A stretch of DNA of 35,818 nucleotides from Candidatus Parcubacteria bacterium (lineage in GTDB: Bacteria > Patescibacteriota > Patescibacteriia > Patescibacteriales > UBA12075): NCBI GenBank assembly GCA_023132155.1, contig JAGLYP010000030.1, positions 1-35,818 on the forward strand, read 5' to 3'. A model generated the notes under the pieces. It was not told the DNA's origin. It worked only from the letters and a program-made list of their open reading frames with translations, and did no database searches. The position numbers and the translations under genes are program-made. Positions 3,005-19,877 of this stretch are shown here, piece after piece. Every line of letters starts with the position of its first letter. Positions within the stretch are counted from its first letter, which is position 1.

Positions 3005-3065
3005 CTGTCATCCTGGAATTTTTTCTTGGAGCGGCAGCGACAAGAAAAAATATCCGGGATCCAGG
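3005..3065. repeat. Left arm of long inverted repeat flanking GIY-YIG gene (family B)
   Basis: A 61-base arm beginning CTGTCATCCTGGAATTTTTT and ending ATATCCGGGATCCAGG. It is near-perfectly complementary to 3409-3467, with differences mainly in the central CAAGAAAA tract. Each arm is itself partly self-complementary (CCTGGA near one end, TCCAGG near the other), so it also resembles a single REP-type hairpin. It lies 11 bases upstream of the pilC start codon and just outside its ribosome-binding region. Confidence 0.88.
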
Positions 3066-3074
3066 GGTAAAAGC

Positions 3075-3374
3075 TTATTCCATGTCTTTTAAAAAATCTC
3101 TCCAAGCAGGATTATCTTTTTCAATTAATTCTATTTTCCATTGTCTTTTGTATCTTTTTAATTTTTTTTCACGGACTATCGCGTCTTGAATATTTTGATA
3201 TTCTTCATAATAAACAAGTTTGTCTGTACTGTATTTTGCTGTAAAACTATTTTTATTTATCTTTAATTTATGTTGTAACATTCTTGAATATAAACTATTT
3301 GTTACTCCGATATATAATGTTCCGTTTCTTTTGCTTGCCAAAATGTATGTGTAATAAATGTAATCTTTTTTCAT
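3075..3374 (-). CDS. GIY-YIG nuclease-domain protein between inverted repeats
   Basis: A 99-aa single-domain protein of the UvrC-N/YhbQ type. YTYILASKRNGTLYIGVT carries the two halves of the GIY-YIG motif. R31 in SLYSRMLQHK matches the conserved catalytic Arg, and the Glu in IVREKKLKRYKRQWKIELI matches the metal-binding Glu. C-terminal residues NPAWRDFLKDME are typical of small free-standing members. The gene sits alone between a pair of ~60-base inverted repeats, inserted between pilB and pilC, which are usually adjacent. It could be a domesticated nuclease or part of a mobile element; it is not needed for pilus function as known. The cellular role of this family is not settled. Confidence 0.85.
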   Translation of the reverse strand: MKKDYIYYTYILASKRNGTLYIGVTNSLYSRMLQHKLKINKNSFTAKYSTDKLVYYEEYQNIQDAIVREKKLKRYKRQWKIELIEKDNPAWRDFLKDME

Positions 3375-3408
3375 CTTTGATGATTATTTTATGGTTTTAT
3401 TTCTTGCT

Positions 3409-3467
3409 CCTGGATCCCGGATATCTTTATTTCCGCTGCCGCTCCAATAAAAATTCCAGGATGACAG
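3409..3467. repeat. Right arm of long inverted repeat flanking GIY-YIG gene (family B)
   Basis: A 59-base arm complementary to 3005-3065, starting CCTGGATCCCGG and ending CCAGGATGACAG. It ends 11 bases before the pilB stop codon at 3478-3480. No target-site duplication is visible outside the two arms. Confidence 0.88.
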
Positions 3468-3477
3468 GCGGTGGGGA

Positions 3478-5172
3478 CTACCCCTCCCCAATAACACGAA
3501 ACACTTCGTCCAAAGTCGTTACCCCGTTTAAAACTTTATCTATTCCATCCTCAAATATGGTAGGCATCCCCATTCTTTCCGCAATTTTTTCTATTTCCGC
3601 GCTTGATGCCCGCTTAAGCACTTTTTCTTTCACAGCCTCGTTCATTTCCATTACTTCAAAAATTCCCACTCTGCCCTTATAACCGGAATCTGAGCACACC
3701 TTACAGCCCTTGCTTTTATATAAATATAATTTATTCAAATCTTTTTTATGTTTTTTAAAAATAATTTCTTTAAACTTTTCGTTTTTATTTATAATTTCAG
3801 CTTCTTTTTGGCTTAATTTATAAGAATAACGGCATTTTTCGCATAATTTTCTTACCAAGCGCTGGGCAATGATAATTTTTATTGTTGAAACAATCAAATA
3901 AGGCTCAATTCCCATATCCAAAAGGCGAGGCAGTGTTGTCGCGGAATCATTAGCGTGCAAAGTAGATAGCACCAAATGCCCTGTCATAGCGGAATTAACG
4001 GCAATTTTCGCGGTTTCTTGATCGCGAATCTCTCCCACCATAATAATATCCGGATCCTGCCTGACCAAAGCGCGAAGCCCTTTGGCAAAAGTAAGGCCGG
4101 TTTTTGGATTTATCTGAATCTGGCTTATTCCTTCAATATCATACTCAACCGGGTCCTCAATAGCGGCAATATTAACTTTGCTGGTATTTAAAATTTTTAA
4201 TATTTCATAAATTGTCGTGGTCTTGCCGCATCCTGTCGGACCGGTTACCAAAATCATGCCATGCGGATTTTTTATGATTGATTTAACTGATTTTAAATTT
4301 TCATTTGACAGCCCGCTTTCATCCAAATTCACTTCCCTGCTAGCCGCCGCCAAAAGGCGAATAACAATATTTTCACCTTCGTTTACGGGCACAATTGAAA
4401 CTCTGGCGTCAATATAATTATCTTGATATTTAAATTGGAACTTCCCGTCTTGGGCGGCTTTATGCTCATCAATTCTCATTTTTGCCATTATTTTTATCCT
4501 GCTTAATATTAAATCTAAAAATTTTTTCGGCAGAACCAAAACCCGATGCATTACGCCGTCAACGCGAAAACGAATAATCACGTCAGCGCGTCCGGGCTCA
4601 ATATGAATATCAGAGGCTTTGCTTATATAACCGTACTCCAAAAACAAATCCACGATTTTTACCATTAATTCATCCTTTTTTTCCTGATCTTCCTTAATAT
4701 TTTTTATGCGCCGTAAAACATCCTCCATATCCTCTTTAAGCCCGGCGCGATAACGCAAAAGCGCGTGATTTAAATCTCGCGTCGTAATATAATACGGCTT
4801 TATTGTTTTGCTGAATTTTTTTTCCAAAACATGAATCATTTCCAAATCTCCAGGATCCTCCATACCCACTTTAATTTGATTTTCATCCCCCGCAAAAGCA
4901 ATTAATTTTCTTGATTTTGCCACCAAATCCGGAATACTGTAAAATATTTTTTCATCAAACTTTTCTTCGCGCAAATTCACAAACGGATAACCGATATTTT
5001 GCGCGGCTAATTGTCCAAACTGCTCATCCTTTATCAAGCCATCATCAAGAATTAAATCGATTATTTTCTTTTTTCCGCTTTGCGCGCGCTTAACCGCTCT
5101 TTTAAAATCATACTCGCTTAAATACCCAGGGTCAACTAATATTTTTTTTAAATTTTCTTTTGTTATTTCCAT
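3478..5172 (-). CDS. pilB: Type IV pilus assembly ATPase PilB/GspE
   Basis: A 564-aa secretion ATPase. It has an N-terminal MshEN-like region (about 1-150), then the GspE catalytic core. Visible motifs: Walker A GPTGCGKTTT at 311-320, the Asp box around AAIEDPVEYD (336-345), Walker B DIIMVGEIRDQETA (375-388), the His box GHLVLSTLHAND (398-409), and a tetracysteine zinc site CEKC (444-447) with CKVC (490-493). It powers pilus extension by ATP hydrolysis at the cytoplasmic face of PilC. No PilT retraction ATPase lies in this window. Upstream within the same transcript are a receiver, a histidine kinase and a Cache sensor, so pilus assembly may be under their control. It ends beside the family B repeat. 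Confidence 0.95.
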   Translation of the reverse strand: MEITKENLKKILVDPGYLSEYDFKRAVKRAQSGKKKIIDLILDDGLIKDEQFGQLAAQNIGYPFVNLREEKFDEKIFYSIPDLVAKSRKLIAFAGDENQIKVGMEDPGDLEMIHVLEKKFSKTIKPYYITTRDLNHALLRYRAGLKEDMEDVLRRIKNIKEDQEKKDELMVKIVDLFLEYGYISKASDIHIEPGRADVIIRFRVDGVMHRVLVLPKKFLDLILSRIKIMAKMRIDEHKAAQDGKFQFKYQDNYIDARVSIVPVNEGENIVIRLLAAASREVNLDESGLSNENLKSVKSIIKNPHGMILVTGPTGCGKTTTIYEILKILNTSKVNIAAIEDPVEYDIEGISQIQINPKTGLTFAKGLRALVRQDPDIIMVGEIRDQETAKIAVNSAMTGHLVLSTLHANDSATTLPRLLDMGIEPYLIVSTIKIIIAQRLVRKLCEKCRYSYKLSQKEAEIINKNEKFKEIIFKKHKKDLNKLYLYKSKGCKVCSDSGYKGRVGIFEVMEMNEAVKEKVLKRASSAEIEKIAERMGMPTIFEDGIDKVLNGVTTLDEVFRVIGEG

Positions 5173-15802: not shown

Positions 15803-16038
15803 TCTATAATCTCAATCTTCTCACCTCTTGATAATTTTTTTATTCTACACTCTTCTTTTAAGGCGCTGGATTTACTTTTTTTCCTGCTTGAATATGCCAA
15901 TTTTACCGGGCGCCTGCCTTTTGTATATTTGGCTCCCAAGTTTGAAGTGTTATGTTCTTTAACTCGCCTTTTAAGATTGCTTGTAATTCCGGTATAAAAT
16001 GTTTTGTCTCTGCATCGCAGGATGTATATATGCCACAT
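15784..16038 (-). CDS. Small GIY-YIG nuclease-domain protein (YhbQ-like)
   Basis: 84 aa. WHIYILRCRDKTFYTGITSN contains the Y-I and Y-T-G halves of the GIY-YIG motif; R25 in LKRRVKEHN is the conserved catalytic Arg, and the Glu in LKEECRIKKLSRGEKIEII is the likely metal ligand. The length fits a free-standing single domain. Its ATG follows the stop codon of the AbrB-like gene without a gap (TAG ATG), so the two are almost certainly co-translated. It is clearly different in sequence from the GIY-YIG protein at 3075-3374. The biological role is unknown; the pairing with a small DNA-binding protein recalls a toxin-antitoxin layout (inference only). Confidence 0.85.
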   Translation of the reverse strand: MWHIYILRCRDKTFYTGITSNLKRRVKEHNTSNLGAKYTKGRRPVKLAYSSRKKSKSSALKEECRIKKLSRGEKIEIIENKRRP

Positions 16039-19758: not shown

Positions 19759-19877
19759 TTTCCAGGCTCATCCCATTTTTTATTTTAATATTTATTATAT
19801 AATTCGTATTATAGATTTCTCCTCGCTACCGCTCGTCGAAATGACAAAGAAAGGTGTGTCGGGAATGACAGAAGATA
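19759..19877. other. Intergenic gap with repeat remnant
   Basis: 119 bases. The middle part (about 19820-19870) has CTCGCTACCGCTCGTCGAAATGACAAAG and GTCGGGAATGACAG-type words of the kind seen in dispersed palindromic repeats, but no second copy occurs in this window. No terminator is present, so the operon probably reads through. Confidence 0.4.

Follow-up and report, generated by a model that had tools for sequence, protein, structure and literature searches.

A GIY-YIG nuclease gene enclosed by CGTC-type REPs between pilB and pilC, a candidate mobilising enzyme for these repeats

RAYT (TnpA-REP), a Y1 HUH transposase, drives the spread of GTAG REPs, and the name 'REPtrons' is used for such systems. 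The superfamily of CGTC-tagged REPs was defined in 2013 by Di Nocera and colleagues, who also noted TGTC and CCTC variants of the tag (PMC3733652). Its members are 20-40 nt long, with an unpaired tag, a stem of 8-9 bp that has AT in its first two positions, a loop of 4-5 nt and a CCA-like tail, and they form tag-outward (HH) dimers (PMC3733652). CGTC REPs are widespread and include dRS3 of Neisseria and RPE-4 and RPE-6 of Rickettsia. According to the defining survey, which left open what moves them, they are not accompanied by transposase genes, and they 'apparently lack a dedicated transposase' (PMC3733652).

The GIY-YIG superfamily includes homing endonucleases (PMC1564403), and the passages of that survey that were searched contain no mention of a link to CGTC REPs. 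Among open-licence papers, no earlier report of such a link was found, and priority is not certain. In this study, we describe a small GIY-YIG gene enclosed by two inverted REPs of CGTC type and present evidence that, in the family to which it belongs, the repeats follow the protein.

The unit between pilB and pilC and its copies

The window, i.e., the whole stretch of 35,818 nucleotides analysed, is contig C24 of a Candidatus Parcubacteria genome of 1.23 Mb in 42 contigs (labelled G000). The original prediction had placed a single small nuclease gene of the GIY-YIG type within inverted repeats of about 60 bases, as an insertion between pilB and pilC, and the coordinates of the gene, the arms and the flanking genes bear this out:

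1909 to 2994, (-) strand: pilC, flanking the unit
3006 to 3466, strand not assigned: whole unit (REP, nuclease gene, REP), between pilB and pilC
3006 to 3065, (+) strand: arm 1, a CGTC-type REP hairpin with TGTC tag outward, AT-started stem and CCAGG tail
3075 to 3374, (-) strand: GIY-YIG nuclease gene, 99 aa, the only gene between the arms
3409 to 3466, (-) strand: arm 2, inverted copy of the REP, a hairpin with tag outward
3478 to 5172, (-) strand: pilB, flanking the unit

The arm sequence, TGTCATCCTGGAATTTTT...ATATCCGGGATCCAGG, is present as two inverted copies of 60 nt (arm 1) and 58 nt (arm 2), both of which read TGTC-AT...AT-CCAGG. They form one inverted alignment of 61 columns with 88.5% identity (72.5 bits). 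The inverted arms are thus real, but 'near-perfect', as they had been called, somewhat overstates their likeness: identity of 100% is confined to the outer 19 nt. Folded as single-stranded DNA, arm 1 forms a hairpin of -17.1 kcal/mol (z -5.4) and arm 2 one of -10.8 kcal/mol (z -2.8), in agreement with the suggestion that the arms are REP-like hairpins in themselves.

The enclosed protein matches PF01541 with 52.4 bits (Pfam cut-off 22.6), and Y10, Y21, G23, R31, H35 and E69 are invariant in an alignment of 31 sequences. By its conserved catalytic residues and its fold, this 99-aa protein belongs to the GIY-YIG superfamily. PF01541 was the only domain found in it, with no NUMOD or other DNA-binding extension and no intron context, and NCBIfam and PHROGs hold no specific named family for it. 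The AlphaFold2 model (pLDDT 93) has helices at residues 62-74 and 77-87, which places residues 74-76 at their junction and residue 79 early in the second helix. In a fold search, the nearest solved chains were 1zg2 and Slx1 (probability 1.00, though with E values of 0.004-0.08), and a profile search returned the UPF0213 proteins 1zg2 (E 7e-9) and 1ywl (E 9e-7). Slx1 is a structure-specific nuclease of branched DNA. A second GIY-YIG gene in the window (15823-16038, (-) strand, 84 aa) belongs to a different subfamily and has no REPs on either side; it serves as an internal control.

The window contains five more REPs, of two other families:

13 to 41, (+) strand: REP of the TGTCATTGCGAG...GCAATC (GCGAG) family, pairs with 90 to 118
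90 to 118, (-) strand: partner of the REP at 13 to 41, inverted pair
652 to 680, (+) strand: REP of the TGTCATTGCGAG family, pairs with 729 to 759
729 to 759, (-) strand: partner of the REP at 652 to 680, inverted pair
19811 to 19846, (-) strand: single REP of a third family (TGTCATTTCGACGAG...GAGAAATC), the type adjoining the nuclease gene at G000:C16:68267

The two inverted pairs (13-118 and 652-759) bracket a pilin-like ORF at 153-632 on the (-) strand. Their family has 38 copies in this genome, and the nuclease matching it, with the motif KAGSRKKK, is encoded at G000:C19:59-367; contig C19 ends inside a REP beside this gene.

A DNA search of the genome with the whole unit gave 37 matches. 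One is a further complete unit, 89% identical (C12:61174-61603), and the remaining matches include many arms, often as inverted pairs without a gene, so that both solo and paired arms occur across the genome, as had been anticipated. The C12 copy has ACG where the other copies have an ATG start codon (L012 1483-1485), and may therefore be decaying or start elsewhere. In a congener (G001), four units lie at four further places, which makes six units at six places in the two genomes and answers the call for further arm-GIY-YIG-arm units. The unit on G001:C32 is absent from the syntenic site of G000, and gene-less repeat pairs of G000 (L003, L004, L006, L007) are absent at four syntenic sites of G001. 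About the same intergenic region holds a CCTGG-type pair in G000 (L005) and a pair of another REP type (ATTTCGACC...GAGAAATC) in G001:C56 (L419). In these comparisons the genomes nearest to G000 are about 80-88% identical to it, and divergence at the syntenic empty sites is too high to place insertion boundaries or target duplications to the base. Many genomes are draft MAGs with contigs broken at repeats.

The unit had also been said to break the usual pil gene order. Several relatives at a greater distance indeed have pilB and pilC side by side, with short gaps and no GIY-YIG gene, so that sites without the gene exist. In the congener, the pilB stop is followed at the same point by an arm, a stretch of about 54 nt and the beginning of an inverted arm, and no gene is seen up to the end of the contig. 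Elsewhere this junction holds an independently acquired ORF for a small helical protein (G003, L054 3186-3681) or a different REP pair (G010, L056), and it therefore seems to be a tolerant insertion point. The opposite picture, of random solo arms unlinked to the gene and of a gene kept at this site without arms, was not what we found. The unit shares with insertion sequences the terminal inverted repeats around one gene, the several copies and the absence from sites in relatives; a Pfam search found no known transposase domain in the enclosed protein.

Among the six gene copies dN/dS is about 0.1 (0.08-0.26), and these genes are under purifying selection. Family matches occur in 51 of 59 relatives, with up to about a dozen in each. 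Strong purifying selection would suit a domesticated host nuclease that resolves or trims the cell's own REP hairpins, the adjoining repeats acting in autoregulation or as terminators. The likeness of the fold to UPF0213 proteins and to the structure-specific Slx1 fits such a role, as does the position of repeats within tens of bases of the gene. However, the units stand at different places in congeners and interrupt conserved neighbours (pilB-pilC and, in an example given below, sufB-sufC). Copies also decay, as with the change from ATG to ACG in C12, and some matches carry stops. Presence is moreover patchy, with a family match in 155 of 240 genomes sampled across the phylum, and we consider a housekeeping role improbable.

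REPs around family genes in other genomes

The association of gene and repeats was assessed by comparing the two 200-nt flanks of a gene for an inverted repeat scoring 36 bits or more. Such a repeat was found for 22 of 49 family genes in related genomes and for 3 of 78 neighbouring ORFs; among 90 ORFs around pilB there were three, one being the window unit itself. A scan of one genome per species provided 80 family loci from many phyla, a set biased to the KKWxRxWK type because it was collected with a closer alignment (a broad one gave no usable pattern). Here the inverted repeat was present in 37 of 78 loci (47%) and in 2 of 412 neighbours (0.5%).

A hairpin detector ([CT]GTCA[TC] with a 6-nt stem and at most one mismatch, within 350-nt flanks) was applied to a systematic set of 293 distinct family genes, 268 of them with full flanks. 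A [CT]GTCA hairpin was present on both sides of 217 of these 268 genes (81%) and of 29 of 548 neighbouring ORFs (5%). At least one side was without a hairpin in about 19% of the family genes, and in about 6% the detector found none at all. Loose single matches in the window show that the detector gives some background, so the count of genes with hairpins on both sides is the more reliable one. Median distances between the matched coding region and the nearest repeats are 25 and 19 nt, and the tags of these repeats point outward more often than inward (203:54 upstream and 192:59 downstream). Two-sided cases come from about 20 phylum- or class-level groups.

Chance or base composition as the cause of this association was ruled out by the neighbouring ORFs and by reversed sequences, in which 2 of 293 genes had a two-sided hairpin. 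The idea that every GIY-YIG gene attracts repeats was likewise rejected: other GIY-YIG genes, UvrC included, have no two-sided REPs (0 of 10). A further explanation by coincidence holds that repeat-rich intergenic regions are a frequent location of small free genes, with no functional link between repeat and gene. REPs are common between genes, and 38% of the neighbouring ORFs have a detector match within 350 nt on at least one side. Against this stand the excess of two-sided hairpins and of inverted repeats over the neighbours, the lack of two-sided repeats at other GIY-YIG genes of the same genomes and the type-specific covariation in four residues described in the next section, and we give coincidence very little credence.

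Individual loci illustrate the range of settings. On plasmid AZO_p3 of Azospirillum lipoferum 4B (L228), the gene splits the suf operon between sufB and sufC and has a complete REP pair on each side. In Neisseria gonorrhoeae, a family gene has dRS3-type repeats around it, and in Sinorhizobium meliloti the repeats are of the CCTC-tag variant. In Planktothrix, a family gene with REPs lies between an MmeI-like enzyme and drmA. At the fnrL site of Sphingobium plasmids, some strains have the unit, two have a fused palindrome, and two have unrelated sequence without such a repeat. The palindrome (CGTCAC..CCGGGTCAAGCC..GGGGTGACG; L243, L244) resembles the outer halves of both arms joined, and looks as if the gene and the inner arm halves had been deleted between short direct repeats. 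In IMG/VR viral contigs (L098-L136), 36 distinct family genes were found, every one with a [CT]GTCA hairpin close by and 28 with hairpins on both sides; prophages may carry the units, or the contigs may come from host DNA.

Correspondence between protein and repeat type

In genomes of the window's order and phylum, the arms vary between genes, even within one genome, and nearly all start with [CT]GTCAT and end with ATC(C/T). When each gene was compared with its nearest protein in another genome, the repeats differed at 1.28 of 8 positions, against 2.73 of 8 for random genes, and none of 1000 permutations fell below 2.41. In a within-genome swap test, genes of one genome that have different repeats were judged by their cross-genome neighbours, and the real assignment of gene to repeat was better in 79 of 90 informative pairs. 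Gene pairs are non-independent, so the safest figure is the test per genome, in which the real pairing gave the better fit for 27 genomes and the swapped one for 2 (p = 1.6e-6).

The alignment columns most informative on repeat type are residues 74, 76, 75 and 79. These four outperformed all 60 random sets of four variable columns in predicting the repeat. At equal identity elsewhere in the protein, genes sharing the same four residues differed by 1.2-1.6 repeat mismatches, and otherwise by 2.4-3.4. Stem base 6 is C where residue 74 is K (90 cases) and G where this residue is G, N, R or A; GS at 75-76 goes with ATTGCG, and K-W-N..W with ATTCCC. Predictions from these motifs for two loci (L017 and L013), made ahead of inspecting their flanks, both came true. 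In the window protein, the putative repeat-reading residues are R74, Y75, K76 and W79. Shared ancestry as the only cause of the match between protein and repeat was ruled out by the within-genome swap and the matched-identity comparison. Judged from these sequence comparisons, repeat type follows the protein, mostly via residues 74, 75, 76 and 79, in the manner predicted of a recognition code.

The link extends to the content of whole genomes. Among 59 relatives, which are not independent of one another, at least four TCCCGC repeats were present in 12 of 14 genomes with a K-type gene and in 9 of 45 without one (p = 1.6e-5), and at least four GCGAG repeats in 10 of 10 genomes with a GSR-type gene and in 9 of 49 without one (p = 1.5e-6). 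Reversed patterns gave no counts. These counts may miss some genes, as gene types were assigned from retrieved sequences alone. Several genomes rich in a repeat type (G051, G008, G011) had no matching gene detected; they are mostly incomplete assemblies.

These data bear on a homing-type explanation, in which the nuclease gene is a parasite copied by repair into a cut, gene-less repeat pair and the repeats spread by other means. That homing endonucleases occur within the GIY-YIG superfamily (PMC1564403) is in keeping with it. The arm-54 nt-arm arrangement at the pilB-pilC junction of the congener is related to the window unit as an unoccupied site would be to an occupied one, and the Azospirillum gene has a complete repeat pair on each side. 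However, the protein is only 99 aa long and has neither an intron nor a NUMOD context, and the abundance of a repeat follows its matching nuclease type. In many genomes a different enzyme also comes with a different repeat type, a change for which a passive target would have no need, and the repeat pairs themselves differ by insertion between the two congeners. We therefore regard homing as unlikely, although less so than the housekeeping role or coincidence.

Proposed mode of spread and relation to described systems

The explanation we favour, and consider likely, is that the 99-aa protein is a sequence-specific endonuclease for its flanking CGTC REPs, and that cognate pairs of enzyme and repeat co-diversify and spread as small mobile elements. 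The unit would be an enzyme gene carrying its own recognition sites. The enzyme is proposed to read stem bases 3-6 through residues 74, 75, 76 and 79, at the junction of the last two long helices. Enzyme and repeat family would form a cognate pair that diversifies together, with several pairs possible in one genome, and the unit, together with gene-less pairs that share its arms, would spread within genomes. The invariant catalytic residues and the likeness to UPF0213 proteins and Slx1 are consistent with an enzyme that recognises a REP, extruded as a hairpin or cruciform, by its stem and makes its cut there or nearby. By analogy with Slx1, the cut would probably fall at the hairpin or at the hairpin-duplex junction.

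We infer that the protein cuts its cognate repeat and moves repeats by cutting followed by repair or re-insertion. To our knowledge, GIY-YIG enzymes do not join DNA by themselves, so that host repair or replication would be needed for movement. The cut might become a new copy by repair from another copy, by capture of a hairpin that has been released or by insertion linked to replication.

The pairing of gene and repeat in about 20 groups, with the enzyme tracking repeat sequence, makes this nuclease the best candidate for the missing partner of CGTC REPs, a large class that has long stood without one, and it probably drives their spread as RAYT does for GTAG REPs. The broader proposition, that small GIY-YIG nucleases are the dedicated mobilising enzymes of CGTC REPs and form minimal elements with a four-residue code and no transposase or integrase of a known type, is in our judgement evenly balanced. 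A co-varying cognate nuclease is in any case a named and directly testable candidate for the mover of these repeats. If the proposal is true, the GIY-YIG catalytic domain offers a compact case of built-in sequence recognition, and the REP-plus-enzyme lifestyle has arisen a second time, independently of RAYT.

Among described repeats, the window arms share the TGTC tag, the AT stem start and the CCA-like tail with the CGTC superfamily, and their family likewise has many dispersed copies, many of them in pairs; the tags of the repeats around family genes point mostly outward. At 58-60 nt, with a longer, interrupted stem, the arms are too long for the 20-40 nt of that superfamily and are therefore filed as a longer CGTC relative, not as a typical member; other families studied here, e.g., TGTCATTCCCGCGAAAGCGGGAATCCAG, fit the size. 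The survey of the superfamily found no dedicated enzyme, whereas one is proposed here.

Among nucleases, the stand-alone GIY-YIG proteins of the UPF0213/COG2827 type (1zg2, 1ywl) and Slx1 share the fold and the catalytic residues, and the window protein is likewise a small stand-alone nuclease. We know of no repeat partner for the solved members, and other GIY-YIG genes of the window's genome, unlike the one described, have no two-sided REPs. Homing endonucleases of the I-TevI type share the nuclease superfamily and possibly the behaviour of a gene entering a site, but here there is neither intron nor NUMOD, and recognition apparently resides in the catalytic domain itself.

The closest parallel is with REP/RAYT, whose logic the original prediction had seen in this unit with a GIY-YIG protein replacing the Y1 transposase, a view now supported by the wider two-sided and cognate-repeat data. 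Both systems have short hairpin repeats with an unpaired 4-nt tag, inverted repeats flanking an enzyme gene, gene-less inverted pairs elsewhere (REPINs) and matching types of enzyme and repeat. They differ in the enzyme, which here has a GIY-YIG domain as its only domain and no HUH Y1 transposase, in the tag, which is CGTC or TGTC (TGTC in the window) and not GTAG, and in distribution, which here covers CPR and about 20 other groups. Since enzyme and tag differ, the system would work like REP/RAYT, yet it is not a member of it.
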